A DNA stretch of 64,000 nucleotides, from the NCBI GenBank assembly GCA_900109895.1, contig FOBR01000026.1, forward strand, positions 1 through 64,000, written 5' to 3'. How positions within the stretch are numbered: position 1 is the stretch's first letter; each line of letters starts with the position of its first letter. Under the pieces are notes generated by a model. That model saw only the letters and a list, made by a program, of their open reading frames with translations, did no database searches and had not been told where the DNA came from. The DNA comes from a bacterium A37T11. GTDB taxonomy: Bacteria; Bacteroidota; Bacteroidia; Sphingobacteriales; Sphingobacteriaceae. Positions 3,055 through 23,304 of the stretch are shown here, one piece after another. The translations under genes and the position numbers were made by a program.

Positions 3055-3058
3055 TAAA

Positions 3059-6780: not shown

Positions 6781-7986
6781 TTATGGCATCACCAATACCC
6801 TCCTTTCTGCCTTATCGGCATTTTCCACCCTGAAATGCACCTTACCAGTAGCTTCCAGGGCTTCCAGTACTTCCCCCAGGTTTTTATATCGGGAGATGTT
6901 GCCGATGAGCTCCACCTGCTGGTTGACACCTGAGCTATACACAACGGCTACATCGTACCAACGGCTGATCTGGTCCATAATGCTGTGGATGTTTCCATCA
7001 AACTTGAAATAGCCGTTTTTCCAGGCGCTGATGCGCTCTACATCCACCTTGCTTACCGTTAGGCTATCGCCTTTAACGACGGCTTGCTGATGAGGACTTA
7101 AAAGTTTTACATTAAAGGTTTTACGCTGTAAGTTTTCTGACCGGACCTGGACTTTTCCTTCTATTAACGTTGTTTTTGTTTCTTTTTCATCGTTAAAGGC
7201 GGTGACGTTGAATGTGGTGCCGAGGACGGTAATCTCTTGGTTACGGCTTTTGACTATAAATGACGAATTTGATTTACGATTTACGACGTACGATTTACGA
7301 TTATCCTGCATGGCGCCGATTGAAGGATTATTATTTACTTCGAAGTAGGCTTCGCCTTCTAAAACAACCTCTCTCCTATCTCCAGTAAATTTACTGGGGT
7401 ACTTTAACGTACTTGCTGCGTTTAACCAGACTTTGGTGCCGTCAGGTAATATTACTTGGTACTGACCACCTTTGGGAGTACTAAGTTGCAACAGCGCGTC
7501 ATGCTGAACTTGATTCAGCATCTCACCCGACTGGTGTGATTTTCCCGGCGCTCCAGAGCCTCTCCCCTTTTTCGCTAGAACGTTATTTCCGTTGCTGTAT
7601 TTTATATTTTCGTCATTAACAACGATCCCGCTTTGGGCTGAATCTAAGGCTATTTTAGTGCCGTCGGCCAGGGTAAGGGTAGCTTGGTTGTAGCCTGGGG
7701 CAATAATGGGCTGGTTCTTGGTGCTTTGGTAAAAGTATAGGCCAATAGCGATGGCTGCGATAAGCAGGGCGGCTACTTTTATATAAGCCTGTAGGGTGGT
7801 GGTGTGGCTGCGGCGGAGCTTGGCATACAGGGCTTTTCGCTCTTCCAGCAATTCTTCTTTGCTGATGATAGCAGACTCCTGGCTGGAGGTGAGGTTGTAC
7901 ACCTTTTCCACAAGGGCTTTTTCCTCAGGTGTACAGGTACCTGCCAGGTATTTGTCAATGAGTAGTTCTGCTTCTTTCTTTGTCAT
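6781..7986 (-). CDS. FecR family anti-sigma factor (locus 1)
   Basis: Inner-membrane anti-sigma factor, 401 residues from ATG 7986, where MTKKEAELLIDKYLAG aligns with the start of the second FecR in this window. An upstream start at 8016 would add 10 residues. Order: cytoplasmic sigma-binding region 1-65 with LIDKYLAGTCTPEE; membrane helix about 70-87; periplasmic FecR domain with STPKGGQYQVILPDGTKVWL and ASTLKYPSKF; C-terminal domain that meets the STN domain of SusC. Two insertions of repeated DNA are translated: about residues 153-164 (from 7496-7522) and about 226-242 (from 7271-7303). Both are in surface loops absent or different in the paralogue at 18261. Confidence 0.93.
   Translation of the reverse strand: MTKKEAELLIDKYLAGTCTPEEKALVEKVYNLTSSQESAIISKEELLEERKALYAKLRRSHTTTLQAYIKVAALLIAAIAIGLYFYQSTKNQPIIAPGYNQATLTLADGTKIALDSAQSGIVVNDENIKYSNGNNVLAKKGRGSGAPGKSHQSGEMLNQVQHDALLQLSTPKGGQYQVILPDGTKVWLNAASTLKYPSKFTGDRREVVLEGEAYFEVNNNPSIGAMQDNRKSYVVNRKSNSSFIVKSRNQEITVLGTTFNVTAFNDEKETKTTLIEGKVQVRSENLQRKTFNVKLLSPHQQAVVKGDSLTVSKVDVERISAWKNGYFKFDGNIHSIMDQISRWYDVAVVYSSGVNQQVELIGNISRYKNLGEVLEALEATGKVHFRVENADKAERRVLVMP
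7271..7303 (-). repeat. TACGATTTACGA repeat embedded in fecR
   Basis: The 12-mer TACGATTTACGA occurs at 7275-7286 and again at 7289-7300. It is translated in frame on the minus strand as part of an insert (NRKSYVVNRKSNSS) that the FecR paralogue lacks. Such CGTAAATC-type low-complexity sequence is more like intergenic repeat DNA than coding sequence. Confidence 0.55.
7496..7522 (+). repeat. REP-like palindromic element inside fecR of locus 1
   Basis: Arms TGCTGAA (7502-7508) and TTCAGCA (7514-7520) around loop CTTGA, preceded by GCGTCA. Same family as 6162-6188. The outer arm pair is G:C here and C:G there, a compensatory change. It is read in frame on the minus strand as SGEMLNQVQHDA. Confidence 0.75.
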
Positions 7987-8045
7987 GCCTTCGGTGCCCA
8001 TATAAGGGGCTAACAACTACATGGAACGTAACGGGGGCTAAGGTA

Positions 8046-8648
8046 TTAGAAGAAAAAGTAAAAAAATGCAAATAGATTGATAATGAGCTTGAAAAAATTC
8101 AGTTGATCAAGCTTTTTTCGCAGGATGCTCAGGGCATTGGCGATCTGGCGCTTTACGGTGTGCTCTGATATATCCAGCATGCCGGCAATTTCCTTGTGGG
8201 AATGGTAATGATTTCGGCTTAGTTCAAAGACTTCTTTCATGCGGGTGGGCAGCTTATCTATCTCAGCCTGGATAATTTGGTGCAATTCCCGTTCGCGGGC
8301 AATGTCATCGGTCACCGGGAGGTCCTGTTGGGCATATAGGATCAGGTTTTCGATGTATTTTTCGCTCACCTTGTTCCTGCGCACCACATTTAATACGGCA
8401 TGGCGTATGCCGGCATACAGGTATCCTTGCAAGGAGGAATGGATCTCCAGTTCCTGCCGCTTTACCCAAAGGTCGGTAAACACATCCTGCACAACATCCC
8501 TGGCCTGCTCCCGATCTTTCAGCATCTGGAGGCCATTAACAAATAAGGAATCAAAATAACGCTCATAAATGACAGTAAATGCTCGATTATTGCCTTCTTT
8601 TAGTAAGGAAATGAGTTCATGGTCGGTAAGTTTAGTAAAATCTGCCAT
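8046..8648 (-). CDS. ECF RNA polymerase sigma-70 factor, FecI-like (locus 1)
   Basis: 200-residue extracytoplasmic-function sigma factor. Region 2 spans about 20-90 (FTVIYERYFDSLF, ARDVVQDVFTDLWVKR). Region 4 spans about 130-185, with an LPTRMKEVFELSRNHYHSHKEI core and the helix-turn-helix GMLDISEHTVKRQIANAL. It is followed after 59 bp by fecR, so release of this factor by FecR should drive the downstream susC/susD genes. A perfect TACATTTG -7 box precedes it at 8669-8676. It is clearly diverged from the other FecI-like protein at 19490 (roughly half the residues match by eye). The very hydrophobic C-terminal tail (LFAFFYFFF) is odd but occurs in both copies. Confidence 0.93.
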   Translation of the reverse strand: MADFTKLTDHELISLLKEGNNRAFTVIYERYFDSLFVNGLQMLKDREQARDVVQDVFTDLWVKRQELEIHSSLQGYLYAGIRHAVLNVVRRNKVSEKYIENLILYAQQDLPVTDDIARERELHQIIQAEIDKLPTRMKEVFELSRNHYHSHKEIAGMLDISEHTVKRQIANALSILRKKLDQLNFFKLIINLFAFFYFFF

Positions 8649-8767: not shown

Positions 8768-9736
8768 TTGGAAATTTATGGGCGATCCTTAAAACTTCAG
8801 CTTTCTAAAGTAGTATTGCCGGTCGTCGTCAGTTATGTCCCGCATCACATGGCATGGGTTTCCTACAGCAATTACATTTGCCGGGATATCCCTGATTGCC
8901 TGCAAAATAAAGAAGATAAGCCAATTAAAGATTCCCTGCCATCGTATATTGATTTTTTAAAAAAGACTGAATGGGTGGGTACAGACGATGGTGTGGGCAG
9001 CCAGTTTCCCCGGCCAGTAGACATAACTTTTGGTAATGACAGCTCGCTGGCTATTTATGCGGTTTACAACATTAGAACTGAAAACAGCAACAAGAATATG
9101 ATTAAAGCCGATAGTTTGCTGGGTAAAATAACAAAAATTGATAGCATAGCTGACGGAAGCACGCAAATCACAGTAAATTTTCCGGTCATGGGGGGTGATG
9201 AGGTGATCACCATTAAGGATAGAAAAAAACTGACGTTATTGTTTGCTGATCATAATAGCCCGCATTTAAATTCCTTTAACTACACCCTGGATCTATTTCC
9301 TGCTACCGGATTTTCATTAACCGATACTAAGTGGAGCGGTGCATTAGCCAACCCAGATGAAACCCCCGTAAACTATAGGTATAACTACCCTGACCTTAGT
9401 GCAGTGAATTTTCATACGACCTCAATAGGTAAGACGGCCTCTATTATTAAAAACGGTGGAGTAGCCTATGAGAATATCTACAAACAAATGGGTGCCCGGG
9501 TTTACGTAACGGGCTACAATGAAGGTTACAGCTGGGATATGGACATTGCAAGTGAAACTGGCAATTATACCGATTGGCGACAAGGCAGAACCATCATCTA
9601 TTACGGTGTAATACTCCCTACTGGTAATAACATGTATGTCGATGCGCGATCATCCAATGCCCGGTTGCCAAATTACACCCAAAGTTCTGAAATTTATGGC
9701 CCCAAAGGGGTTACTCCTAATATTAGTAAGCAGTAG
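8768..9736 (+). CDS. 5'-truncated secreted protein of unknown function, fused to antisense maa remnant
   Basis: The reading frame is open from TTG 8768, but its first 40 or so codons are the antisense strand of the maa fragment at 8789-8892. Genuine sequence appears to begin at 8893 with DCLQNKEDKP, where Cys followed by a polar tail looks like the first residue of a mature lipoprotein whose signal peptide has been cut off. The remainder is beta-rich with two similar openings, KKTEWVGTDDG and TDTKWSGALAN, suggesting two related beta domains, and ends in a Tyr/Asn-rich segment. I recognise no family. It is probably non-functional or at least mislocalised. It converges on the FAD oxidoreductase gene. 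Confidence 0.55.
   Translation: MEIYGRSLKLQLSKVVLPVVVSYVPHHMAWVSYSNYICRDIPDCLQNKEDKPIKDSLPSYIDFLKKTEWVGTDDGVGSQFPRPVDITFGNDSSLAIYAVYNIRTENSNKNMIKADSLLGKITKIDSIADGSTQITVNFPVMGGDEVITIKDRKKLTLLFADHNSPHLNSFNYTLDLFPATGFSLTDTKWSGALANPDETPVNYRYNYPDLSAVNFHTTSIGKTASIIKNGGVAYENIYKQMGARVYVTGYNEGYSWDMDIASETGNYTDWRQGRTIIYYGVILPTGNNMYVDARSSNARLPNYTQSSEIYGPKGVTPNISKQ
8789..8892 (-). pseudogene. 3' fragment of maltose O-acetyltransferase gene (direct-repeat copy A)
   Basis: On the minus strand this reads RDIPANVIAVGNPCHV..., continuing to YYFRKLKF and a TAA stop. It matches the last 33 codons of the intact gene at 20190-20789. In the 102-bp match 8791-8892 versus 20192-20293 I count four mismatches: one synonymous and three conservative (V/I, R/H, E/D). 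The match stops abruptly at 8892/8893. No start or upstream part is present, so it is a remnant. Confidence 0.9.
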
Positions 9737-9800
9737 GTTTTAGGAAAACCATTGGCGGAATTCTTAATTTTGGTCATGTCCTGTGCTTGCAGGCCTAAAA

Positions 9801-11444
9801 TCATTGGGCTAGCACTTGTTTTCTGCTTTCTAATACTTTTTTGAGTTGTTGATAATCGATATCCTGCACAGCCTTGTCTGAATCTATGGCCAGCACTGCT
9901 GCAGCAGCGGCACTTTGGCCAAGGATCATAAATACGGGCTCCATGCGAATGGAACCATAGGCAATGTGCGAGCTGGACACGCATACGGGCACAAGCAGGT
10001 TGCTGCATTCTTCTTTTTTAGGCGTGATGGAGCCGTAAGAGATCTGATAGGGTTTCTTCGGGATCACCCCTATATCTCCCTCATTCTGTACAAAACCGTC
10101 TGGTTTGATGTACCGCTGTGCATTGTGCGAATCAAGTGCATAGGAACCCATGCCCACTGGGTCTTTGATGGCTGACTCGCTGAAAGTATCGTGCTCTGTC
10201 ATCACATGCTGGCCGATCAGCCGGCGGGCCTCCCGAATGTATAACTGATGAGGCCAGTTGTCATTGTCTGTAAACTCGTCTTTGGCCAGCCTCCACTGCG
10301 ACATCTCTTTGCGTACGTCTTCGGGTACTTTTGGGTCGTTGGCCAGATAATACATCAGTCCTTGCTGGTAGTCCTTGTGGGCCTGAATGATTTTTTTGCG
10401 GTCCTCGTAGCTGGCTTCGGGATATGCGTAGTTCATCCCAATAAAATCGGTACTAAAAGGTCCGTGATTGTTGGTATCGGTCTTCCGGTTAGGAATAGGG
10501 TCAAACTTCCGGAACGTCTCTCTCCAGCCACTGGTAAAAACCCGCGCTAGCAATTCGTAATTGTCCGGATTGTAATTCGCTGGCTTCGGAAAGGGCACGC
10601 GGTTATCTGGGTTATTGCTGAGTGCCATCCGGAAGCAGTATGCTTGTACTTTTTTATCCGCCTCACCAAATTTGCCTGGAGGAAGGTCAGACACCCCATA
10701 CAATAGCCCACTGGAAGAGTCTCCGGGTATCTTATACGGGCTGATATTTTTTTTGAAATAATGGTAGTGGTGCAGTACCCCTACCTGTACCCCATTGTAT
10801 TTTTCGTTATAGGTACTGTTAGCTTCCCGGCCTACATGATAGCTCACCCCTGCTGCGGCCATCAGGTCGCCTTCATAGGTGGCGTCGATGAAAACCTTGC
10901 CGGTGAAGGTTTTTCCGCTCAGTGTTTTGATTGATAGGATCCGGCCATCTTTTTTGATAACCCCACCTTTGCTCCTGTCCAGCCACTCGTCCCGATATAC
11001 CTTGAGTTTATTTTCCTTCACAAAGTCTTCAAAGATTTGCCCGGCGGTATGCGGCTCAAAGATCCACATGGTGTGCGAGTCGCCATCAATGGCAGGAGTG
11101 CCCTGACCCTTATTGCCATATTCAGCATGTTTTTGCCATTTCCAAGCGGCTGAATCCTGGTAGTGCAGGTATACCCGGTGGTAAAACTCCCGTGCCAGAC
11201 CTCCGATGACGCCTTTATTGCCTGTATCGGTAAAACCGAGTCCTCCAGAAGAAAGACCTCCCAAATGCGTGTCTGGGGAAACTACAATTACCTTTTTGCC
11301 CGAATTCACAGCTTCAACTGCGGCAGTTATGGCAGCAGCGGTTCCTCCGTAAATGATCAGGTCGGCGGTGTAAGGATCAGATTTAGACTGACCAAGGGAT
11401 ATATTCAATAAAAATACAACTGAAAATAAAATATTTTTTTTCAT
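9801..11444 (-). CDS. FAD-dependent oxidoreductase, secreted (PF12831-type)
   Basis: 547-residue protein with signal peptide (about 1-20). A Rossmann dinucleotide motif follows at once (DLIIYGGTAAAITAAVEAVN), then the segment HLGGLSSGGLGFTD typical of the FAD-dependent oxidoreductase family often annotated in polysaccharide loci. Further features are IDATYEGDLMAAAGV and a C-terminal FAD-binding part with PVCVSSSHIAYGSIRMEPVFMILGQSAAAAA. The reaction is unknown; oxidation of a sugar or lyase product is a guess. It starts 2 bp before the end of the upstream glycosidase gene region and is the last gene of locus 2. No missing motif seen. Confidence 0.88.
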   Translation of the reverse strand: MKKNILFSVVFLLNISLGQSKSDPYTADLIIYGGTAAAITAAVEAVNSGKKVIVVSPDTHLGGLSSGGLGFTDTGNKGVIGGLAREFYHRVYLHYQDSAAWKWQKHAEYGNKGQGTPAIDGDSHTMWIFEPHTAGQIFEDFVKENKLKVYRDEWLDRSKGGVIKKDGRILSIKTLSGKTFTGKVFIDATYEGDLMAAAGVSYHVGREANSTYNEKYNGVQVGVLHHYHYFKKNISPYKIPGDSSSGLLYGVSDLPPGKFGEADKKVQAYCFRMALSNNPDNRVPFPKPANYNPDNYELLARVFTSGWRETFRKFDPIPNRKTDTNNHGPFSTDFIGMNYAYPEASYEDRKKIIQAHKDYQQGLMYYLANDPKVPEDVRKEMSQWRLAKDEFTDNDNWPHQLYIREARRLIGQHVMTEHDTFSESAIKDPVGMGSYALDSHNAQRYIKPDGFVQNEGDIGVIPKKPYQISYGSITPKKEECSNLLVPVCVSSSHIAYGSIRMEPVFMILGQSAAAAAVLAIDSDKAVQDIDYQQLKKVLESRKQVLAQ

Positions 11445-11445
11445 C

Positions 11446-12978
11446 TTATTCTATATAACTAATTTTTCCCTTTACATAGATCATTTGATCGTTGACCAAT
11501 AGTTTAATCGAGCCATTGATAGGCGACTCAATTCTTGAATTCCCCATAATATCTGTAATTTTTAATGAATGAGTGGTATGGAAGATCACCTGCATACTCT
11601 TATGTGCATACATGACTCTCACCGACTCGTGATCTTTCTCAAATAAATAACTAAAGGTGGGTGCCTTTTCTGTCTTCAAAAACCGACCACCTGATAATTC
11701 TCTGATAAGTACTCCATAGGAAACATAGGCTGGTTTGGGAACGTATGCACCCAACACATCATCCGGGTGACGGATCAAACCAAAATTACTCTCCCGATCA
11801 CGGCTAAGGGTATCCTGGTTCTGTAAATTATATATACTAACCTTTGAAATACCATGTGCAAGGGCAGTTATTATTCTTCTAACGGTGTACCCAGCTTGCA
11901 AATAGACATCTATGCTGGTATTGCTGTTACCTGTTTCTGACAGAATCATAGGAACTGTGTGGCCATTTGCCTGAGATTTGACATAATTACGGTACTGGTT
12001 AATTACTGTGATGATATTTTCTGGTAGCAAGCCGTACGCATGAAAACTGAATTGGTCAACATATGAAAGCGCTCCTTGCAAAAATAACTTATCAAGAAAA
12101 CCCACCGTAGTGAATTTTGGATTGCCGCTCAGGACAAAGCCTGTTATCAGAACATCCGGTCTGGTAATTTTGAGATAGACGAAGCTACTTTTCAGAAGAT
12201 TTAAATAGGCTTCAGCCCGCTCGTCCCATGAAGTTAATCCTTTGCTGTATGTAGGCAGATCCGGTTCATTCCATATTTCTACTTCTTTTACTTGGGGATA
12301 ATGATCGATCACGCGCTTTATATAGTTGGTAAAGGCCGCTACAGATTCTTTCGTTACCGGGAAATGCCCCTGATCATATAAAGGATTATACACACCCATT
12401 GTTGCATACAACCGGATGCCATAGCCGGTTATTTGTTCCATAACTGTATCAAATTTGGCCGGAAACCGATAGATACCTTTGGTTTTTTCAATTTCTTGCC
12501 AACGGAAACAATCACGTACATATTTTACTCCCAACCTTGCCACGACTGGAATTGTTTTCGAATAATCTTCCCATGAATGGGTTTGAACCATAAAAGGTGA
12601 GGAAGCAAATTTAGAGGGATCAAATTCAGTGAGAACCGCAAAGCTGGTCGTTTTCTCTAATAGGGCAGTTCCGTTACGGATTGATTTCACTGTTAAACTA
12701 AACCAACCTAATTTTTCAGTCTGTATATGAATACTTGCCGTATCGCCTGATACCGCGAGGGTATCAGTGCCTAGTAGCTGGTTCCAATAATCCTTGTAAG
12801 TGAATGTAATTAACTGGGTAGTCGTTTGAATCTTAAATATGATGGGTTCTGTTTTTAAGAATACATTGCCGGTGACACTCTGCCGGATGATCAGGTAATC
12901 TTTGCCTGCATTTTTGGCCATCAGACTTTCCCCTGAAAAGACAGCCAATAAAATTAGTATAATTACACTATTTTTCAT
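11446..12978 (-). CDS. Clan GH-A-like glycoside hydrolase, secreted
   Basis: 510-residue protein with signal peptide. An N-terminal beta-sandwich-like region (about 25-120) precedes a TIM-barrel: GVKYVRDCFRWQEIEKTKGIYRF (split around residue 160), the acid/base motif EIWNEPD (Glu about 238) at the end of strand 4, and the nucleophile candidate ILSETG (Glu about 348) at strand 7. This layout fits clan GH-A, with resemblance to GH39/GH5-type enzymes; I cannot assign the family. A small C-terminal beta domain follows. It is co-directional with susD (19-bp gap) and the FAD oxidoreductase (1-bp gap), so it is the glycan-cleaving enzyme of locus 2. Confidence 0.8.
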   Translation of the reverse strand: MKNSVIILILLAVFSGESLMAKNAGKDYLIIRQSVTGNVFLKTEPIIFKIQTTTQLITFTYKDYWNQLLGTDTLAVSGDTASIHIQTEKLGWFSLTVKSIRNGTALLEKTTSFAVLTEFDPSKFASSPFMVQTHSWEDYSKTIPVVARLGVKYVRDCFRWQEIEKTKGIYRFPAKFDTVMEQITGYGIRLYATMGVYNPLYDQGHFPVTKESVAAFTNYIKRVIDHYPQVKEVEIWNEPDLPTYSKGLTSWDERAEAYLNLLKSSFVYLKITRPDVLITGFVLSGNPKFTTVGFLDKLFLQGALSYVDQFSFHAYGLLPENIITVINQYRNYVKSQANGHTVPMILSETGNSNTSIDVYLQAGYTVRRIITALAHGISKVSIYNLQNQDTLSRDRESNFGLIRHPDDVLGAYVPKPAYVSYGVLIRELSGGRFLKTEKAPTFSYLFEKDHESVRVMYAHKSMQVIFHTTHSLKITDIMGNSRIESPINGSIKLLVNDQMIYVKGKISYIE

Positions 12979-12997
12979 CAGTCATTTAATTCAAATT

Positions 12998-14599
12998 TCA
13001 GTATCCTGTATTTTGAGTCACCAATTTATTTAAAGACAACTCATAACTTGGAATGGGCAATAAGAGGTTCCTGTCCGAAATGGCGGTGGCTGCGGTCGTT
13101 ATTGCGAGTGTAGTTCCACCGTTTGCCCGTGCATATGCCAAATAGTTTTTCATGTCTCCTATAAAATTACCCCACCTGATCAAATCTGGCTTTCTTAAGG
13201 CTTCGAAACACAATTCCCTCGCTCTTTCCTCCTTAATAGCTTGTAAGAATTGATCCTTACTGAGATTCTCTGCTAGGTCGGGATGAGCATTGGGGTGCGG
13301 TGGACTAGGCAGCATAAACCCATAGGCTCTACGGCGCACGGTATTTATAGCGTCATACGCTTCGGATGTGGGACCATTGTGCACAGCATTTTCTGCTTCT
13401 GCGTACATTAACAATACATCGCTGTATCGTAGTAACGGAAAATTTTGTGGAGTATAGTTTGAATTTTTTGGAATTACCACTTCGTATTCACGCCTCCATT
13501 TCCCAGCGCACATCTGCCAAATATTAGTAACAGCGGTCTTAACTCCTACCGTTTTTGTACCCCAGTTATAGTTGGCACATGCCCAATCCCTGCGTAGGTC
13601 AAGGGAGCCCTTATTCGGGCTACTTTCACTTTCGGGATCGATCTCATATAAATCATACAGGTATCTGGTTGCCACTATGCTTCCCGTGCTAAATCCAATA
13701 TTTGCATCACTGCACCTGATGCCACACCACCTTCCGGCATATGTTCCGCCTTTATTGGTCAAACCATCGTTATTCCGATAAAACTCCAGTTCCCATATAC
13801 TTTCTTTAGTATCATATTTATCCGTTGCATAATTTAAATATATTTGGGCATAGTCCGGATTTAACGCATGCTCCCCGGATTCAATCACTTTTTTTGCCCA
13901 ATCGCTCGCTTCCTGATACTTTGATTGATCATTAACCGGATACCCTGCCATGTAAAGACACACTCTGCTGAGAATACCTTCTACCGCTGTCTTGGTCACC
14001 TTCCCCCCGTAACCTAAAGAAGTGACGGTTTGGCTTGCCAGCAATCCTTCTGCTATTTCCATATCATGGATAATTTGAGCGTAAACTTCTTTGCTTGCCG
14101 TCCTGGCAATATCAACCTCAGATACAGATGAAGTTGATGAGAGCTTTAGTGGAACATCTCCATAATTGCTAACGAGCAAAAAATAAAAATAGGCTCTTAA
14201 AAACAATGCTTCTCCTTTGATAATTTGGCGGCGGCTTTCATTCATAGTGGGTTTGTCAACATTCTCCAGTAAGAGATTAGCTCGTTCAATCGCTATATAA
14301 CAACTCTGCCAAAACAGATTCAGTTTATCATAAGCTGCATCGTACTGATAGGAGGTTTCTAATTTTACATTAAAATCATACGATTCATCAGTGTTTACAT
14401 TAAAAATGTATAAGTAGTTATTGCCATAACAATCAACATGGGTTAATTGGGAATAAACGCCGTCTAAGGCAGCTTGCAGCTCAGTTTCATTTGAATAGTA
14501 AAGTTCAGGAACAACAAAGTCTGTAGGCTCGGTCTCAAGAAAGCTTTTACAAGAAAACAGGCACGTAAGTCCCATAAAAAGCAAAATAAATTTTGTCAT
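12998..14599 (-). CDS. RagB/SusD family nutrient-uptake lipoprotein (locus 2)
   Basis: 533-residue surface lipoprotein with lipobox LTCLFSC (Cys about 17). SusD traits are the opening FLETEPTDFVVPELYYSNETELQ (split by the family's usual N-terminal helix), GEALFLRAYFYFLLVSNYGDVPL, AVEGILSRVCLYMAG, and the C-terminal KEERARELCFEALRKPDLIRWG and LLPIPSYEL. It starts 6 bp after susC of locus 2 and forms the substrate-capturing lid of that transporter. Confidence 0.95.
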   Translation of the reverse strand: MTKFILLFMGLTCLFSCKSFLETEPTDFVVPELYYSNETELQAALDGVYSQLTHVDCYGNNYLYIFNVNTDESYDFNVKLETSYQYDAAYDKLNLFWQSCYIAIERANLLLENVDKPTMNESRRQIIKGEALFLRAYFYFLLVSNYGDVPLKLSSTSSVSEVDIARTASKEVYAQIIHDMEIAEGLLASQTVTSLGYGGKVTKTAVEGILSRVCLYMAGYPVNDQSKYQEASDWAKKVIESGEHALNPDYAQIYLNYATDKYDTKESIWELEFYRNNDGLTNKGGTYAGRWCGIRCSDANIGFSTGSIVATRYLYDLYEIDPESESSPNKGSLDLRRDWACANYNWGTKTVGVKTAVTNIWQMCAGKWRREYEVVIPKNSNYTPQNFPLLRYSDVLLMYAEAENAVHNGPTSEAYDAINTVRRRAYGFMLPSPPHPNAHPDLAENLSKDQFLQAIKEERARELCFEALRKPDLIRWGNFIGDMKNYLAYARANGGTTLAITTAATAISDRNLLLPIPSYELSLNKLVTQNTGY

Positions 14600-14605
14600 G
14601 ATCTG

Positions 14606-17600
14606 TTAAAAATTTATGTCAGCACCAAATGTAAAGGTCCGCGCCCTCGGATAGGCAGAATAGTCAAAACCAGGTGTCAGGGTTGAATTTCGGATGGATA
14701 CCTCAGGGTCAGGACCAGAATAATTAGTCCAGGTAATCAAATTTTGCGCTGATAAATAAAACCTAAAAGATTTTATATTCAATTTTTTAGTCAATTCTTT
14801 TCCTATCGTATACCCGAGCGCAAGCGTCTTAAGGCGGATATATGATCCGTCTTCAATAACCCTGTCTGAGTAGGCGAATGGTCCCTGCCCGCCTGCTCTG
14901 AAAAGCGTGTTGCTGGGATTGTCAGGTTCCCATCGTTCTTTTACGGTCGCAAATTGATTTAAGTGGGAAAGGTTAGACGGATTTCCTTCCAGGATGAGGC
15001 GATTGGCATTCAGTAGATCATTCCCATATGACCATTGAAAAAACACGTTCAGGTCAACGTTGCGATATGTGAAGTTATTGGTGATACCTCCTGCGTGGAT
15101 GGGAATTCCTTTTCCAATAGTCGTAATATCGTCATTGTTAATAACAAGATCTCCATTTAGGTCTTTATATTTGTTATCGCCGGGTTTGATATTGGCTCTT
15201 GGGTTGCCATTAGTGGTTATATTGCTTTTTAGTACGTACACGTTATTATTAAGATCAAAATCGTCATATTGATACACACCATCCCAACGATATCCTCTCA
15301 TTTGGGCTACTGATTGGCCAACGATGGCGGTATACGGAAATAACGAATTATACTGTTGTGAAAATAATACAGTGCTTAATAACTCATCTTGGTTTTCTGT
15401 TAATTCCAATACATTATTCTGATTAAATCCGATATTAAAGCTGGTTTCCCATTTAAAATTTTCATGGACGATATTCATCGTATTTAAAGTAATTTCCAAC
15501 CCTTTGTTCCGGATCTTACCAATATTTTTTAAGGCGGAACTAAATCCCATGGAATAAGGTAGGTTAGCCAACAATAACAGGTTGTGGGTATCTTTTTTAT
15601 AGACATCCACTATTAATGTAATGCGTTGGTTAAACAGGCCCAGATCCAATCCAACATCCGTTTGCGCCATGGTTTCCCATTTCAAATTTGGATTTCCAAG
15701 AGTTGATATCTGAGCTCCTGTGGAAGTATTTGCATTTTGGTAAGGATATCCTGCTTCTGATCCCAGATAGATTTGTGTAAGGTAACCAAAGTCTGATACA
15801 CGGTTATTTCCTACAAGGCCATAGCTAATCCTCATTTTCGCGTCGGAAACAACCGCTGCGCTTTTCATAAATTGCTCTTTTGCTATATTCCAAGCAAAAG
15901 CTCCTGAAGGAAAATAGCCCCACTGGTTTCCACTTTTAAATTTAGAAGATCCATCCGTCCGAAATGAAACTGTAAACAAGTATTTGGATCGGTAACCATA
16001 ATTGATCCGGGAGAGAAATGAGGCCAACTTCCACCGAGAGCTTGAAGCTGCTGCTGACAGTGACGTGGTTTGATCTAGCCCGTCAAGGCCAAGGGCCTCA
16101 TTAGGTATATGATTGGCATAATACCCATTTCTTGATGTGGTGAGTCCTTGCAGTGTAAAACCTGCAACGACATTCAGCGTATGCGATTTTTTAAAAATTT
16201 TATTATAGGTCAACGTGTTTTCATTTAGCCACGACCTGGGGTTGGTGTAGTAAACAGAACCATTAACCCCAGCTGGATTGTAGATACTTCCCCTTGCCGT
16301 CATAGAATTGAAGAAATTCTCACTTTTTACCATGTTATTGGAAATTCCTCCTGTGATTTTTAATTTAAGTTCTGGAAAGAAAGCATATTCTGCATATGCA
16401 TTTGCATATAGATTGTCTGTAAAAGTATTACTGATCTGATTCTTGGTTGATATAACCGGATTAACGCGATAATCGGCGCCGTTTCCATCCAGCTCGGGAT
16501 CTATGAACTGCCCGAATAGGTCCGAATTATCATCTTTTCCCGTAACCGGCCTGTAACCCCAGACTGAATAAAACAGATTATTGGAGTAGGATACGTTCAG
16601 GCCGTTTTCAGCAGGATTGACTCCATGTGTTTTGCTGCTACTATAATTAATGTTTACGCCCGCCTTCAATTTATTACTGATGGTCTGGTCTAAATTCACC
16701 CTTCCCTGATATCGCCTGAATCCTGAATTCAATACAATACCGTCCTGATCCAGGATATTTCCTGAAATGGCATATTTTGTTTTATCATTTCCCCCTCTTA
16801 GTGCGATAGAATAATTTTGAATCGGGGCGGTCTGGTATATATAATCTTGCTGATCTATACCTTTTATATTTTTATAGGATTCTAGGGTCTTTCCGTTGGT
16901 CAAATAAACATTTTCAGCTTCCGTCAGATTAATTTCCATTTGATATTTAACAAATTCATATGGATTCAGTAAATCCATTTTTTTTCCAACTTTTTGTATA
17001 CCATAGTAGGTATTAAAAGCTAATTGTGCAGGTCCGGAGGTTCCTCTTTTTGTGGTGATGATGACTACACCGTTGGCACCTCGCGCACCGTAGATGGCGG
17101 TAGCTGAAGCATCCTTTAGCACTGTAATGGAGGCTATGTCCATATTATTTAGGGAGTTTCCCATATTTTCTTCCATAGGAAATCCATCGATGACGTACAA
17201 GGGAGAATTATCTTGTGTTATGGAGCCGGCTCCCCTGATGACGATATTGTTATTTTGACCGGGCTGACCGTCATTTCCACTCACTGCCACCCCAGCGACC
17301 CGACCTGCCAAAGCCTCATCGAAAGATTTAACAGGGGCCTTATCCATATCATGAATATTGACAGATGCTACTGAACCAGTTTGATCTGCTTTTTTAATCT
17401 CGCCATATCCGATCACCACAACCTCATTTAAATTGTCCTTTTGGAGACTCATCGAAACATTAACCGCAGTATTGTCTCCTATCTTTCTTTCAACTGTTCC
17501 ATAGCCTATATAGCTAAATACCAATACTACGCTACCATTTATCACTTTGATACTATATCCGCCCTGTGCATTGGTCACTACACCCGTTGCTACTCCTTTT

Positions 17601-18088
17601 ATCCGGACAGTTACTCCGGCTAATGCTTGGCCTTTATCATCGGTCACTTTCCCTGTAATAGTCCGTTGCTGATTTTGAGCATATACTAACGAGGGCATAG
17701 GTATTTTGTTAGTTGTTGCCATATTTAATGCTTTTCCAATCAAAATGGTGTTATCTTTGAGTTCATAGGTAAGCGATAACGGATTTAGTATTTTCTTTAG
17801 AAGGTCCTCAAGGGGCATTTCTGTTGCCGAGACGTTAATGGCTATAGCAGGATTGACAAAGCGATCATTATAGATAACTTTGTGATTTGTTTGCTGACGG
17901 ATCATGTCAAAGATCTGGCTTATGGGCCTATTTTTGACATTTATTGTAATAGTTTGCGACATGGAAGCAGCGCTTACGTGTAGACATCCCCAAATTATTA
18001 GTAAAGTAGTTACTTTCATAACTAAGATTAACTGGTTTATCCGATGTGGCAAGCTAATGCCACAACAAGAAATTACATAATTTATCAT
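14606..18088 (-). CDS. SusC/RagA family TonB-linked outer-membrane transporter with STN domain (locus 2)
   Basis: 1160-residue outer-membrane transporter. Signal peptide about 18-45, within a long N-terminal extension; an internal ATG at 18019 is an alternative start. STN domain about 50-115 (NRPISQIFDMIRQQTNHKVIY), carboxypeptidase-regulatory-like domain from about 143 (RTITGKVTDDKGQALAGVTV), a VVVIGYGEIKKAD segment, and a plug with NMDIASITVLKDASATAIYG and GANGVVIITTKRG. The C-terminus is a barrel ending in Phe. The STN domain and the adjacent fecR/fecI pair indicate regulation by trans-envelope signalling. Unlike its locus 1 counterpart it has no palindromic insert in the STN linker. Confidence 0.95.
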   Translation of the reverse strand: MINYVISCCGISLPHRINQLILVMKVTTLLIIWGCLHVSAASMSQTITINVKNRPISQIFDMIRQQTNHKVIYNDRFVNPAIAINVSATEMPLEDLLKKILNPLSLTYELKDNTILIGKALNMATTNKIPMPSLVYAQNQQRTITGKVTDDKGQALAGVTVRIKGVATGVVTNAQGGYSIKVINGSVVLVFSYIGYGTVERKIGDNTAVNVSMSLQKDNLNEVVVIGYGEIKKADQTGSVASVNIHDMDKAPVKSFDEALAGRVAGVAVSGNDGQPGQNNNIVIRGAGSITQDNSPLYVIDGFPMEENMGNSLNNMDIASITVLKDASATAIYGARGANGVVIITTKRGTSGPAQLAFNTYYGIQKVGKKMDLLNPYEFVKYQMEINLTEAENVYLTNGKTLESYKNIKGIDQQDYIYQTAPIQNYSIALRGGNDKTKYAISGNILDQDGIVLNSGFRRYQGRVNLDQTISNKLKAGVNINYSSSKTHGVNPAENGLNVSYSNNLFYSVWGYRPVTGKDDNSDLFGQFIDPELDGNGADYRVNPVISTKNQISNTFTDNLYANAYAEYAFFPELKLKITGGISNNMVKSENFFNSMTARGSIYNPAGVNGSVYYTNPRSWLNENTLTYNKIFKKSHTLNVVAGFTLQGLTTSRNGYYANHIPNEALGLDGLDQTTSLSAAASSSRWKLASFLSRINYGYRSKYLFTVSFRTDGSSKFKSGNQWGYFPSGAFAWNIAKEQFMKSAAVVSDAKMRISYGLVGNNRVSDFGYLTQIYLGSEAGYPYQNANTSTGAQISTLGNPNLKWETMAQTDVGLDLGLFNQRITLIVDVYKKDTHNLLLLANLPYSMGFSSALKNIGKIRNKGLEITLNTMNIVHENFKWETSFNIGFNQNNVLELTENQDELLSTVLFSQQYNSLFPYTAIVGQSVAQMRGYRWDGVYQYDDFDLNNNVYVLKSNITTNGNPRANIKPGDNKYKDLNGDLVINNDDITTIGKGIPIHAGGITNNFTYRNVDLNVFFQWSYGNDLLNANRLILEGNPSNLSHLNQFATVKERWEPDNPSNTLFRAGGQGPFAYSDRVIEDGSYIRLKTLALGYTIGKELTKKLNIKSFRFYLSAQNLITWTNYSGPDPEVSIRNSTLTPGFDYSAYPRARTFTFGADINF

Positions 18089-18159
18089 TAAGTTTGTAAA
18101 GTTTGGATGGTTTCAATATCCGGTTTAATACTGGCTTATAACATTTCCGTATCCGAACA

Positions 18160-18190
18160 GCACAGGGGGGTGGTGACAACACTTCCCTGC
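18160..18190 (-). other. Leader hairpin upstream of susC (locus 2)
   Basis: In the 172-bp fecR-susC gap an imperfect hairpin GCAGGG-AAGTG / CAC-CCCCTGTGC can form. It shares the AAGTG...CCAC layout with the hairpin at 6726-6753 in locus 1. The remainder of the gap is AT-rich. Confidence 0.3.
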
Positions 18191-18260
18191 ATTGTTTTGC
18201 TTGATTTTTTTACGTTTTTTCCATAATATTTATTTTCTTTTGTGTTTAATTGATATGTAA

Positions 18261-19433
18261 TTAATCAATGTATAGTCTTCTTCCTTCTAAATGAAAGCGA
18301 ATACCTGATATTTTCAACAATTCTAATACGGTCCTCAAACTTGCATTTCTAGGCATATCGCCGGTAAATGTTTCTTTGGGGATAGGGCTTTTGTAAGTAA
18401 CTTCAATATCATACCATCGTATAAGCTGTTGCATCATATCTTCCAAAGTGGTATTTTTAAAGTAAAAGTCGCCGGATTTCCATGCTATGGCGGTGTTAAT
18501 GTCTATGGCTTTAACTTCGATTTCTCCGTTATGATTAATGACTTGTTGGCCAGGAATTAAGCGTTTAATGATTGATTGGTTTTTTGGTTTATTTTCATCA
18601 TAGGCTGACACCTGTACAACTCCGGTGATGAGGGTGGTTTTGACAGAGGGATCTTCTGCATAGGCAGAAATATTAAAAGATGTGCCCAAGACATCCACCA
18701 CTTGCCTCCTACTCTTCACTTTGAAAGGTTTGTCTTTTACCTGAGCTACGTCAAAGAAAGCTTCACCGGAAATTTCAACTTCTCTGCTATTTCCACTGAA
18801 GCGGGATGGGTACTTAAGGGTGGAGGCGGCGTTAAGCCATACCTTAGTGCCGTCTGAAAGGGTGACTTGGTATTGGCCGCCCTTAGGAGTGGTTAATGAT
18901 AGTAAAGAATTGGGCAGTCCGCGCGGGGATTTCACTCTTCCTTCACTCAGGAAGACGCCGGTGACGGAACCTCCACTTTGGTATTTTATGTCTTCATTAA
19001 TTACTATAATTCCGCTTTGGGCTGAATCCAGAAGTACCTTCTTACCATCAGCTAACGTTAAGGTGGCTTGATTATAACCCGGTAAGATGTCTGACTGTGC
19101 AGTTCTTCCGCCTTTGGATTTATCCGAGCTTTGTGAATATCCTGACCTGTTGTGACTGATGGTAAAGTATAGTGCTGAGGCTAAGGTTAATAGAAGTATC
19201 GCGGCGGCGGCAATGCGAATATAGTTTTGTAGTGTGCGTATTTTTTTAGTGCTATTACGGCGAAGACTGGTATATACACGCTTGCGCTGCTGTTCTAATG
19301 CAGCTTTGTCGATTTCCCCGGCATTTTCCCCATAGGTGGCTGTATACGCTTTTTCTATAAGCGCCATTTCTTCCGGGGTACAGCTACCTGCCAGGTATTT
19401 ATCGATCAGCTTGTCTACTTCGTCCTTTGTCAT
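18261..19433 (-). CDS. FecR family anti-sigma factor (locus 2)
   Basis: 390-residue inner-membrane anti-sigma factor. Cytoplasmic sigma-binding region with LIDKYLAGSCTPEEMALIEK, membrane helix about 70-90, periplasmic FecR domain with TTPKGGQYQVTLSDGTKVWL and ASTLKYPSRFSGNSREVEISG, and a C-terminal TTLEDMMQQLIRWYDIEVTY domain that meets the STN domain of SusC. The linker before the FecR domain (GVFLSEGRVKSPRGL) is encoded by a palindrome (18936-18955) at the same relative place as the insert in the locus 1 FecR. It is followed by susC and preceded by fecI with a 56-bp gap. Confidence 0.93.
   Translation of the reverse strand: MTKDEVDKLIDKYLAGSCTPEEMALIEKAYTATYGENAGEIDKAALEQQRKRVYTSLRRNSTKKIRTLQNYIRIAAAAILLLTLASALYFTISHNRSGYSQSSDKSKGGRTAQSDILPGYNQATLTLADGKKVLLDSAQSGIIVINEDIKYQSGGSVTGVFLSEGRVKSPRGLPNSLLSLTTPKGGQYQVTLSDGTKVWLNAASTLKYPSRFSGNSREVEISGEAFFDVAQVKDKPFKVKSRRQVVDVLGTSFNISAYAEDPSVKTTLITGVVQVSAYDENKPKNQSIIKRLIPGQQVINHNGEIEVKAIDINTAIAWKSGDFYFKNTTLEDMMQQLIRWYDIEVTYKSPIPKETFTGDMPRNASLRTVLELLKISGIRFHLEGRRLYID
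18936..18955 (-). repeat. Palindrome inside fecR of locus 2
   Basis: Perfect 7-bp arms TCTTCCT (18936-18942) and AGGAAGA (18949-18955) with loop TCACTC. It is translated in frame within the same variable linker that holds the palindromic element in the other fecR, but its sequence is different. Confidence 0.45.
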
Positions 19434-19489
19434 CTTCCTGCCCTTTTGGGGTTTTTTCAGATGTATGGGACTTTGTGGCGGTTAAAAGT

Positions 19490-20092
19490 CTAGATGAAAA
19501 AATGAAATAATAACAAAACACTGATTTCTAGAAAGAAAAAATTCATTTGAGTTAGCTTTTCTTTTAATATTCGCAGGGCGTTGGCTACTTGGTTCTTAAC
19601 GGTGCTCTCTGTAATACCGAGTAATGCGGCTATCTCGTGGTTGGTATAATGCTGCTTATTCTTTAGTTCAAACACTTCGCGCATGCGTGGGGGGAGCCTG
19701 CTGATCTCTGATTCTATGATCTGATTGAGTTCGCGTTCGCGGGTCAGGTCGTCTGTCATAGGCAGCTTTTGGTCTGCAAATTGGATGACATGCTCCCGGA
19801 AGCGGTCTGCTACCTGGCTGCGACGGATGACCTTAAGTACGGCATGCCGTGTGCTGCTATATAAATAGGCTGAAAGGGAGCTTTGGATATGGATGGCCTC
19901 TCGGTGCTCCCAAAGATATGCGAACACATCCTGCACTACGTCTCCGGCTAATGCGCTATCTCTTAGAATTTGCATGGCGTGCCGATACATCAACTCAAAG
20001 TAGCTTTCATAAATAATAGTAAATACCTGCTCATCGCCTTGTGTGAGGAGGTCGATCAGTTGGGAATCGGTATATTTACGATAGTCTGCCAT
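19490..20092 (-). CDS. ECF RNA polymerase sigma-70 factor, FecI-like (locus 2)
   Basis: 200-residue ECF sigma factor. Region 2 contains FTIIYESYFELMYRHAMQIL and AGDVVQDVFAYLWEHRE. Region 4 contains LPPRMREVFELKNKQHYTNHEIAALL and the helix ITESTVKNQVANALRILKEKL, each split by a short turn. It should direct transcription of locus 2 when released by the adjacent FecR. It starts 98 bp from the end of maa on the same strand and has its own TAGCTTTG -7 box. It is a distant paralogue of the factor at 8046, so the two loci are probably controlled separately. Confidence 0.93.
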   Translation of the reverse strand: MADYRKYTDSQLIDLLTQGDEQVFTIIYESYFELMYRHAMQILRDSALAGDVVQDVFAYLWEHREAIHIQSSLSAYLYSSTRHAVLKVIRRSQVADRFREHVIQFADQKLPMTDDLTRERELNQIIESEISRLPPRMREVFELKNKQHYTNHEIAALLGITESTVKNQVANALRILKEKLTQMNFFFLEISVLLLFHFFI

Positions 20093-20110
20093 GGTTTATT
20101 TGGTATGGGA

Positions 20111-20118
20111 CAAAGCTA
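20111..20118 (-). promoter_or_regulatory. -7 box of the fecI promoter (locus 2)
   Basis: TAGCTTTG on the minus strand, matching TAnnTTTG, 18 bp upstream of the fecI start. No clear -33 TTG at the usual spacing. Confidence 0.45.
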
Positions 20119-20189
20119 TAGAAAAATTATTGCATGTAGATGTGCATGAAAATTTATTTTCTATAATTGAGGAGTATTATAGAGCCATC

Positions 20190-20789
20190 CTAAAACTTCA
20201 GCTTTCTAAAGTAGTACTGCCGGTCGTCTTCAGTTATGTCCCGCATCACACGGCATGGGTTTCCTACAGCAACTACATTTGCCGGGATATCCCGGGTGAC
20301 TACACTGCCTGATCCGATTACGCTGTTATCACCAATTGTGACACCCGGATTTATCACCACATTCCCCCCGATCCACACCCGATGGCCGATGGTTATGGGA
20401 AACGCATATTCATATTGTTTTGTTCGTGGCTCATGATGGATGGGATGGCCTGCGGTAAAAAGGCTCACATTGGGTGCAAATAGCACATCGTTTCCAATGG
20501 TAACTGCGGCGCAGTCCAGTATGGTACAATTATAATTGCTAAAAAAATTTTCACCGATTACAATGTTATAACCATAATCACAACGAAACGGGGGTTCCAG
20601 AAAAAAACGTTTACCCGTGCCACCCAACAAGTCCTTGATTATCTTTTCCCGTTCTTTTACTTTATCGGGTGGCAACGCATTAAATTCATGCAGCAGGTTT
20701 TTGGCATACTGCCGTTCAGCAGACAATTCCTTTCCAAATGCGCTATAAGGCTCACCTTGCAGCATTTTTTCTTTTTCTGTTTTCTTCAT
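20190..20789 (-). CDS. maa: Maltose O-acetyltransferase-like hexapeptide acetyltransferase
   Basis: 199-residue sugar O-acetyltransferase. The N-terminal Mac helical domain (about 1-60, KMLQGEPYSAFGKEL...ERQYAKNLLHEFN) is followed by left-handed beta-helix hexapeptide repeats (IGENFFSNYNCTILD, ITIGHRVWIGGNVVINPGVT, IGDNSVIGSGSVVTRDIP). The catalytic His is in LFTAGHPIH. It transfers acetyl from acetyl-CoA to a sugar hydroxyl in the cytosol. Its last 102 bp are duplicated at 8791-8892. The gene is complete and of normal length. Confidence 0.92.
   Translation of the reverse strand: MKKTEKEKMLQGEPYSAFGKELSAERQYAKNLLHEFNALPPDKVKEREKIIKDLLGGTGKRFFLEPPFRCDYGYNIVIGENFFSNYNCTILDCAAVTIGNDVLFAPNVSLFTAGHPIHHEPRTKQYEYAFPITIGHRVWIGGNVVINPGVTIGDNSVIGSGSVVTRDIPANVVAVGNPCRVMRDITEDDRQYYFRKLKF
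20192..20293 (-). repeat. Direct-repeat copy B, 3' end of maa
   Basis: The intact partner of 8791-8892, same orientation, 98 of 102 positions equal. Together the two copies bracket about 11.3 kb containing the truncated lipoprotein gene and all of locus 2. Confidence 0.9.
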
Positions 20790-20909: not shown

Positions 20910-20999
20910 GGTGAGGTGCCTGAGTGGCCGAAAGGAACAGTTTGCTAAACTGTCGTACTGGAAACGGTACCGAGGGTTCGAATCCCTCCCTCACCGCCA
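20910..20999 (+). tRNA. tRNA-Ser (anticodon GCU)
   Basis: Class II tRNA. The acceptor stem GGTGAGG (20910-20916) pairs with CCTCACC (20989-20995), followed by G and an encoded CCA (20997-20999). Anticodon arm ACAGT-TTGCTAA-ACTGT gives anticodon GCU, reading AGC/AGU. A long variable arm GTACTGGAAACGGTAC is present, as expected for serine. The T arm contains GGTTCGAATCC. Confidence 0.97.
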
Positions 21000-21013: not shown

Positions 21014-21036
21014 CCCAGGCTATCGCCTGGGTTTTT
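21014..21036 (+). terminator. Intrinsic terminator of tRNA-Ser
   Basis: CCCAGGC-TATC-GCCTGGG followed by TTTTT, starting 15 bp after the tRNA CCA end. Confidence 0.85.
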
Positions 21037-21096
21037 CTGTTATAGGGCAGCCTCTAAGTGAGGAACGAACTTAAGGGCTGCCCTATAACAGAAAAA
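21032..21096. repeat. 21-bp perfect inverted repeat
   Basis: Arms 21032-21052 and 21076-21096 are perfectly complementary over 21 bp, with a 23-nt loop that itself pairs partly (AAGT/ACTT). The left arm starts with the T-run of the tRNA terminator and the right arm ends in AAAAA, so the T/A ends are part of the stem and do not form a U-tail on either strand. Confidence 0.85.
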
Positions 21097-21098
21097 CT

Positions 21099-21179: not shown

Positions 21180-23252
21180 TTAACCTATTTTTTCAGTAGA
21201 CACCGTTTTAGCCGTTTTATCATAATCGATCCGCACATGATAAATACTCATGAGCATGTTTTTAAATATTTCCCGGATAACCTCTATATCACGAAGGGTG
21301 ATGTTGCTGTTCTTTAGTTGGTGCTGGGCAAGTTTGTAGTCAATAATTTTATCCACCAAATTATTAATGCTGACGGCATCGGGTTCTTTAATGCTCCGGG
21401 AGGCGGCTTCGACCGAATCTGCCAGCATAAGAACTGCCGTTTCGCGCGAATAGGGAATGGGGCCGGGATACCGGAAGACGTCTTCGTCGACAAATTTCTC
21501 GGGGAAGGTCTTGATATATGACTGATAAAAGTAGTCAACCCGGGTGGTTCCGTGATGTGTGCGTATAAAATCAATAACGGGTTCGGGCAATTGTGCCTTC
21601 CGGGCCATTTCGACGCCTTTGCTGACGTGCATGATAATGATCTGCGCACTTTGCTCAAAGGTTAGCCCATCATGCGGGTTATAACCCTTGGTTTGGTTTT
21701 CAATAAAATATTGCGGATTGGAAATCTTACCGATATCATGATAAAGAGCGCCGGCACGTACTAACAGCGCGTTGCCCCCTATTTTATAGATGGCGGCTTC
21801 AGCCAAGTTGGCTACCTGCAGGGAATGCTGGAAGGTGCCGGGTGCTTTAAAGGATAATTCGCGAAGCAGCTTGGAGTTGGTATTGGTAAGTTCCATGAGC
21901 GTAACATCTGAGATGAGGCCAAACAGCCGCTCGAAACCATAAATAAGTGGATATGCCAGCAGTGTGAGCAGCACGCTGATAATAAAAGGTACAAAATTAC
22001 CCCAGTTTATGTCTGTAATGGACCCGTCTTTAATGAGGGCCATCCCTAAAAAGCTCACGAAGTAGGTAACGAGGATGATGGCTGACGACATTAAAAACTG
22101 TTCCCGCTTGACGAGGGTTTTAATACTATAGATAGATACCATGCCTGCCGTGACCTGCAAAAAGGAAAATTCAAAGCTATTAGGCACGAAAAAGGCGCCA
22201 ACCAATACCATTAGCAAATGTATATTTAGTGCCAGGCGGGTGTCAAAGAGGATGCGCATAATAATAGGCACTATACAAAAGGGCAAATAATAAATGCTGG
22301 GCAGACGAATTTTGATGCCCCACGACAATACGACCAGCATACTTGTAATTACAAAGAGAATTAGAAGCAATAGGCGGTTGTTCTCAAAAATATCCCGTCT
22401 GAACAGGTATAAAAATACCATGAGCAGTGTAACAACCAGCGCTACGATAAGAAATTGCCCAAATACAACCACCAGGCGATTACCGCCGATGCGTGCTTCC
22501 TCTTCATACACTTTGCGCAATGATTCCAGCTTTTGGTAAGTGTCTTTATTGACGGTGGTACCGGTGGCGATGATCAGCTCTCCTTTTTGTACCATGCCCC
22601 GTGTAGTGGAAATACTGCTGAGCGCATCGGCTTCCAATTTATTTGTCAACTGTTCATTAAATACGTAATTGGCCATCACGTAATCTTTCAGCAGGTTTTT
22701 GAGCCATTCCTTTTCTTTGATCACGCTACGCTTATCCACCTCATCGCTGATATATTGCTGCGCAGTTTCCACGGTGAATACGTCGGCGGTGTTTAAACTG
22801 GTAACCAGATTATCTGTAACGAGTGAAAAATTGTAATTGGGACCTGTGATCTGGAATTTTTTGGTGAGGGAGATAATCCCTTCGTCATATATGTGCTGCA
22901 ATAGTTGGCTGCCTATTGATTGGTAGGTTTCCAGATCCTTTTCATCAAAATTTGTATTCTTCCATTTGGCGCCCAATTCATCCTGAAAACGTGCCACTTG
23001 CTGTTTACCGGCTTGCACATGGTTGTCATAGATGGGATAGACCGATTTAAGCACCTGCTCCCGGTCATCTTCGATTTCATCCTGCGTTTTCAGGATGGCA
23101 AAATTGTAGGGTGAAACCAGATCCTCGTGCATCCAGACCATTCCTTTTTCATATTCATACCTAAAGCGGGCTTGTTTAGGCAAAAATAGTGTAATAAGGG
23201 ATACACAGGCGATCATCATACCATATTTGGATATCAATGGATATTTACCCAT
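21180..23252 (-). CDS. pgpH: 7TM-HD family membrane phosphodiesterase, PgpH-like
   Basis: About 690 residues from ATG 23252; a GTG at 23288 would add 12. Order: one membrane helix near the N-terminus; a large extracytoplasmic 7TMR-HDED domain; seven membrane helices about 270-460; and a cytoplasmic HD domain with the metal motif AGALYHDIGKI, HGTTRVDYFY and MLADSVEAASRS. Family members (Listeria PgpH) hydrolyse cyclic di-AMP; that substrate is transferred from the family and not proven here. It is transcribed away from the thiolase gene, with a TACGTTTG box at 23305-23312. Confidence 0.88.
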   Translation of the reverse strand: MGKYPLISKYGMMIACVSLITLFLPKQARFRYEYEKGMVWMHEDLVSPYNFAILKTQDEIEDDREQVLKSVYPIYDNHVQAGKQQVARFQDELGAKWKNTNFDEKDLETYQSIGSQLLQHIYDEGIISLTKKFQITGPNYNFSLVTDNLVTSLNTADVFTVETAQQYISDEVDKRSVIKEKEWLKNLLKDYVMANYVFNEQLTNKLEADALSSISTTRGMVQKGELIIATGTTVNKDTYQKLESLRKVYEEEARIGGNRLVVVFGQFLIVALVVTLLMVFLYLFRRDIFENNRLLLLILFVITSMLVVLSWGIKIRLPSIYYLPFCIVPIIMRILFDTRLALNIHLLMVLVGAFFVPNSFEFSFLQVTAGMVSIYSIKTLVKREQFLMSSAIILVTYFVSFLGMALIKDGSITDINWGNFVPFIISVLLTLLAYPLIYGFERLFGLISDVTLMELTNTNSKLLRELSFKAPGTFQHSLQVANLAEAAIYKIGGNALLVRAGALYHDIGKISNPQYFIENQTKGYNPHDGLTFEQSAQIIIMHVSKGVEMARKAQLPEPVIDFIRTHHGTTRVDYFYQSYIKTFPEKFVDEDVFRYPGPIPYSRETAVLMLADSVEAASRSIKEPDAVSINNLVDKIIDYKLAQHQLKNSNITLRDIEVIREIFKNMLMSIYHVRIDYDKTAKTVSTEKIG

Positions 23253-23304
23253 TATGCCTGAAGATAGTGTTTTTGTTGTGCGTACCACAGGAATATTTTT
23301 TTAT

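Follow-up and report, generated by a model that had tools for sequence, protein, structure and literature searches.

A displaced 3' end of a maa-like gene beside a second Sus-type locus in the Sphingobacteriaceae bacterium A37T11, read as the likely scar of a single integration

The window analysed here, 64,000 bp of contig FOBR01000026.1 of the Sphingobacteriaceae bacterium A37T11 (assembly GCA_900109895.1), contains an acetyltransferase gene resembling maa whose 3' end occurs twice. The two copies bracket an 11.3-kb segment that carries a Sus-type locus (locus 2) and a truncated lipoprotein gene, and another Sus-type locus (locus 1) lies to the left of the stray copy. On balance, the repeat is read as the scar of a single integration that used homology in maa and one illegitimate joint between the maa end and the lipoprotein gene. 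The scar is most likely an ordinary recombination product, formed where the second Sus-type locus was added. Single integration with an illegitimate joint is favoured because it explains at once why a stray gene end and a truncated gene are present, why maa is intact and why neither locus was lost.

The repeat search gave a direct repeat of 103 nt, copy A at 8790-8892 and copy B at 20191-20293, with four mismatches (96% identity) and a spacing of 11,401. Within the genome itself (60 contigs) the repeat was found at these two places and otherwise only as three matches of 14-21 bases. Both searches bear out the original prediction of a bracketing repeat with its copies in the same orientation and 96% identical. 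Comparison of the sequences shows that copy B, on the minus strand, is the 3' end of the intact maa (20190-20789, minus strand), which has 199 codons and matches to the Mac and Hexapep domains; its closest curated models are galactoside and maltose O-acetyltransferases, with scores below the model cut-offs. Copy A, also on the minus strand, is the displaced 3' end and finishes with the stop codon TAA at 8789-8791, where copy B has TAG. When the flanks of the segment are joined in silico an uninterrupted maa frame of 199 codons results, with the three substitutions of copy A. Deletion of locus 2 by recombination between the copies, as had been foreseen, is thus possible on paper, but it should be rare given that the longest identical run is 26 bp.

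The two edges of the match differ in character. On one side it ends approximately at the stop codon, the BLAST alignment extending a few bases further with one gap. Homology between the two intergenic regions that separate maa ends from sigma factor genes was rejected, since their alignment score was within the range of mononucleotide shuffles (reached by 128 of 1000). The other edge coincides with the border of a 10-bp palindrome, GGGATATCCC, at 8883-8892, next to the joint 8892/8893. The intact maa has a 14-bp palindromic form, CCGGGATATCCCGG, at 20282-20295. For about 2% of positions the centre of a palindrome of at least 10 bp is no more than 8 bp away, and the one at the joint was noticed post hoc; its relevance to the event is a hint.

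The joint 8892/8893 breaks two genes, maa on one side and the signal peptide of a lipoprotein on the other. The lipoprotein remnant (8894-9736, plus strand, 280 residues) continues in frame from copy A, converges with the genes of locus 2 and is open from the lipobox cysteine to the stop, with the signal peptide missing. It was aligned with ten homologues in which a signal peptide and lipobox cysteine were recognised by eye, and this cysteine is matched by residue 2 of the remnant. The search behind this alignment gave 11 matches in 10 of 399 family genomes, one of them being the window's own gene; a weak extra match from outside the family (G098, E 4.9e-4) was omitted.

The other six genes in the segment share the minus strand and have the make-up of a Sus-type locus under control of an extracytoplasmic function (ECF) sigma factor and FecR: a sigma factor, an anti-sigma factor, a SusC with an STN domain, a SusD and enzymes, all in one direction. 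In order of transcription, domain matches identify the ECF sigma factor (19490-20092; also the NCBIfam model TIGR02985), the FecR-type anti-sigma factor (18261-19433), the SusC-type TonB-dependent transducer with STN, CarbopepD_reg_2 and Plug domains (14606-18088) and SusD (12998-14599). They are followed by a putative glycoside hydrolase resembling PslG (11446-12978; 5jvk with E 1.7e-14, PslG with 3.2e-9) and an FAD-dependent oxidoreductase (9801-11444; PF12831). To judge from their sequences the enzymes are probably degradative. The seven genes are tightly packed, with 172 bp as the largest gap. Pfam and NCBIfam scans gave no family for the lipoprotein remnant or for the PslG-like protein. 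No recombinase was recognisable among the seven frames in Pfam and other domain scans, these two frames being without a Pfam match, and a near-match search, in a collection that may leave out very near records, gave no plasmid match.

In the stretches fetched, relatives of locus 2 and of maa lie apart from each other. Full-length relatives of the PslG-like protein occur in three of the 399 family genomes (41-42% identity), while 16 further genomes, besides A37T11 itself, have weak, partial matches. In the three genomes (L102-L104) locus 2 is colinear, with identities of about 60% for SusC, 71% for SusD and 43% for the FAD oxidoreductase. Neither maa nor the lipoprotein gene was present in the 19 kb fetched around these relatives, two of which adjoin mraZ and other dcw-type genes (named by eye). 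Relatives of maa are widespread, some match being found in 57 of 60 genomes, and the best named matches are from Sphingobacterium; the three genomes with a relative of locus 2 are probably Sphingobacterium-like as well. Their surroundings differ among those fetched. Among the window genes tested, the only one found beside a maa homologue in the relatives examined was a SusC-type frame in L073.

From this arrangement we infer a donor, a circle and an order of events as follows. The donor piece would have come from a chromosome with locus 2 next to maa, and would have spanned the maa 3' end, all of locus 2 and part of the adjoining lipoprotein gene. The recipient would have had maa followed by locus 1. 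Homologous recombination would have taken place inside maa, while the broken ends were joined illegitimately, so that the maa end met the lipoprotein gene in its signal-peptide region. It would be simplest for the piece to have been circularised at that joint and then integrated through one crossover inside the 103-bp repeat. The same product would result from a linear piece that recombined homologously at one end and illegitimately at the other. This product would be locus 1, copy A, the broken lipoprotein gene, locus 2, copy B and the rest of maa, with maa intact and both loci kept. The structure seen is of the Campbell type, the insert lying between direct copies of the target, one of which is in the intact gene, and the inner edge of the stray copy being a non-homologous joint.

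Several observations weigh against a single integration. The search brought up no genome of a donor, of an empty site or of an alternative strain, in a setting where one genome covers the genus and the collections may omit very near records. Foreign composition was tried as a property of locus 2 and rejected, as codon usage is mostly inside the range of the genome: five of the seven genes lie at the 50th-59th percentile, with the FAD oxidoreductase at the 11th and the sigma factor at the 2nd (background of 239 frames of at least 150 amino acids, those above 450 nt being used; one stretch, L177, overlaps the window). Codon usage therefore gives no independent sign of a foreign origin, though none would be expected from a donor of the same species. 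The model also needs two strains that differed precisely at the maa stop codon, since the homology goes no further. Finally, the differences in copy A look unconstrained, a state equally compatible with two alleles and with later drift.

Read on the maa strand, the coding differences between copies A and B are V>I, R>H, E>D and one synonymous change (CAG/CAA). Earlier they had been described as synonymous or conservative, as if copy A had been part of a working gene. By residue class the first description holds, but three of the four changes are nonsynonymous, and about 27% of random changes are expected to be synonymous. The position of the R>H change has R or K in all 24 aligned homologue rows (hand-picked, two rows being the same gene). 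The inference of a working gene is unsupported on these two grounds; as far as four differences can indicate, copy A lacks the look of a gene end under constraint.

The condition of the lipoprotein remnant, which has no stop or frameshift, bears on the age of the event. In simulations of 5% drift, as if the whole difference of copy A had arisen since the event, a remnant of 280 codons stayed open in 26% of runs without indels, and in 6% and 1.4% of runs when indels were set at 5% and 10% of substitutions, all settings being chosen by the analyst. A remnant aged by drift should usually carry a stop or frameshift, and for this reason the simulations favour copies that already differed at the event and would be alleles of two strains. 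The R>H change in copy A points against the two-allele reading.

Among the alternatives, a repair patch is doubtful, although it fares best. Here the lipoprotein gene would have lost its start by deletion and the gap would have been filled with 103 bases from the 3' end of maa, locus 2 having always been in its present place. One event without foreign DNA would account for both edges of copy A and for the truncated gene, and the changes in copy A resemble drift. The start of the copied patch at the maa stop codon would however be chance, and the lipoprotein frame does not show a matching decay.

Site-specific integration is quite unlikely. Genomic islands inserted at tRNA or protein-coding genes can rebuild the 3' end of the gene, and an island integrase, since lost, could have used the maa end as attachment site and brought a replacement end. 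The repeat does reach the stop codon as in such islands, its other edge lies on a palindrome, and removal of the segment restores maa on paper. The original prediction of an element inserted into maa is supported in that the segment would have supplied the present 3' end and displaced the old one, but the left end of the segment lies inside the broken lipoprotein gene, directly at what would be the attachment site. A self-moving island is disfavoured because of this truncated gene, the lack of a recognisable recombinase in the seven frames and the lack of any gap above 172 bp. The comparison of maa neighbourhoods that had been suggested earlier gave no support either: when the translations from 11 relatives were inspected by eye, no integrase-like frame was seen directly at maa, and the sole such frame downstream of it (L047) is separated by a tRNA-Pro (the tRNA scan covered nine of the 11). 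An integrase-borne island was rejected on these grounds.

Tandem duplication of the unit from the maa end to the lipoprotein gene, with the left copy later lost or replaced, or with the copies kept alike by gene conversion, is very unlikely. Locus 1, to the left of copy A and on the minus strand, comprises an ECF sigma factor beside copy A (8046-8648), a FecR-type anti-sigma factor (6781-8016), SusC (3059-6586) and SusD (1678-3072), all recognised by domain matches, and a thioredoxin-like gene. In its favour, both sigma genes are near a maa end, at a distance of 140 bp for locus 1 and 97 bp for locus 2. The locus 1 sigma factor is also the best of 92 other own-genome matches to that of locus 2 (52% identity), and in a tree of 33 rows (the 30 best own matches and three from relatives) the two form a clade with one other sequence, with support 98/93 and no resolution inside. 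The anti-sigma factors differ from this pattern: they are 42% identical (50% in the own-genome search), and 12 own paralogues outscore that of locus 1 against that of locus 2. The SusC proteins are 28% and 24% identical over two stretches, against 96% for the repeat. A recent tandem duplication, with units alike over their length, is thus not what is seen, and the loci are distinct paralogues, much too diverged for a duplication that also made the repeat. It would also take another event with its end point at the maa stop codon. The tandem duplication junction offered in the original prediction finds no support in these identities, nor in the relatives of locus 2 with their 19 kb free of maa.

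An assembly error, with unrelated contigs of this draft genome in 60 contigs joined via the repeat, is highly improbable: a cross-join via a shared k-mer is unlikely because the copies have no 27-mer in common (longest exact shared run 26 bp), and their four internal differences leave no reason for a k-mer path to switch.

Returning to integration by homology in maa, there is a slim chance that the maa end is a recurrent docking site, where strains swap and accumulate their different sigma/Sus loci through homology to maa, much as in the module arrays of type VI secretion systems. In that case the two adjacent sigma factors would be alternatives for a single chromosomal position, and this would account for the sigma factor of locus 2 having its nearest own-genome match in that of locus 1.

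Locus 2 itself looks mosaic over 14606-20092. Compared with L102-L104, its SusC is 67-68% identical in the plug and barrel and 30-33% in the N-terminus (residues 1-228), and the regulators are 34-35% (anti-sigma) and 33-35% (sigma) identical. Own paralogues on contigs C39 and C45 are nearer, with 48-49% for the SusC N-terminus and 46-50% for the anti-sigma factor, while the sigma factor is nearest that of locus 1. Part of this pattern would be explained by a faster rate in the N-terminus, for which about 37% is expected in a hand calculation from the values among the three relatives (87-89 against 94-97%); a swap of regulators is therefore not proven by the SusC N-terminus, and the sigma tree appears to be the firmer sign of it.

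The genome (5.1 Mb) holds a large set of ECF, FecR and SusC genes, with 93 matches to the locus 2 sigma factor, 81 to the anti-sigma factor and 143 to the SusC N-terminus. The SusD of locus 1 belongs to a broad family; among the matches listed it reaches at most 50% over nearly the full length, with one partial match of 52% (G259, residues 107-464). Locus 1 also contains an inverted repeat of 33 nt, 88% complementary, with one arm in the SusC gene (6157-6189) and the other in the anti-sigma gene (7495-7527).

Beyond maa there is a tRNA-Ser(GCT) at 20910-20999 that points against the 7TM-HD gene at 21180-23288. Between them is a terminator-like inverted repeat of 29 nt (21031-21097), whose arms are 93% complementary and 9 nt apart. 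In eight picked relatives (38 of 46 genomes had a match) the distance from the tRNA to the 7TM-HD gene is at most about 210 bp in seven and 1.7 kb in the eighth (L194). Only in L194 is the orientation the same as here, and the region beyond the tRNA varies. No maa orthologue was found at this site in any of the eight; L198 has an acetyltransferase of 37% identity about 7 kb off, and L193 ends at a contig end.

Many Bacteroidota carry dozens of Sus-type loci, and their route of arrival is often unclear, no trace of a mobile element being left. The scar offers a concrete and testable route, homology to a neighbouring gene together with one illegitimate joint. The signature to seek elsewhere is a stray gene 3' end to one side of a locus, with a gene truncated where the joint was made. 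Such leftovers are already known from laboratory recombination, and their use is mainly as a record of the stacking of gene blocks. A literature search on illegitimate recombination and polysaccharide utilization loci returned no such account for Sus-type loci, which is a thin basis for claiming absence.

With islands that rebuild a gene 3' end the segment shares the displaced end on the far side and the replacement end brought by the insert, but it has no integrase and there is a truncated gene at the joint. A likeness in structure is seen in plasmid integrants from conjugation in E. coli. In that study (PMC3240628), a polymerase chain reaction product for the duplication was obtained in 56 of 60 clones, and sequencing of 14 clones showed partial duplications of the target, 109-950 bp long; the explanation given is that a truncated and re-closed circle, with some of its homology missing, integrated by a single crossover. 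In both cases foreign DNA without a recombinase of its own lies between direct partial duplications of the end of a target gene, with 103 bp here. That event involved a plasmid and was selected, whereas here an 11.3-kb chromosomal locus is involved, with a broken neighbour gene at the joint.

Homology-facilitated illegitimate recombination (HFIR) likewise combines one homologous with one illegitimate side, so that foreign genes are trapped beside a conserved anchor. As HFIR is described in PMC3240628, where it occurred with a deletion in four of the 60 clones, a deletion is expected in the recipient; what is seen at maa is a partial duplication of the target, with no sign of a deletion. In PMC5361080, HFIR is proposed for the stacking of effector-immunity modules in the type VI secretion arrays of Vibrio cholerae, with displaced 3' ends as in Rhs loci. 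There, as suggested here, an incoming module is inserted at conserved sequence and shifts the former 3' end, together with the genes downstream of it, further along. In those arrays the displaced gene is part of the module, whereas in A37T11 the anchor is an unrelated acetyltransferase gene, the cargo is a Sus-type locus and there would have been a single event instead of an array.

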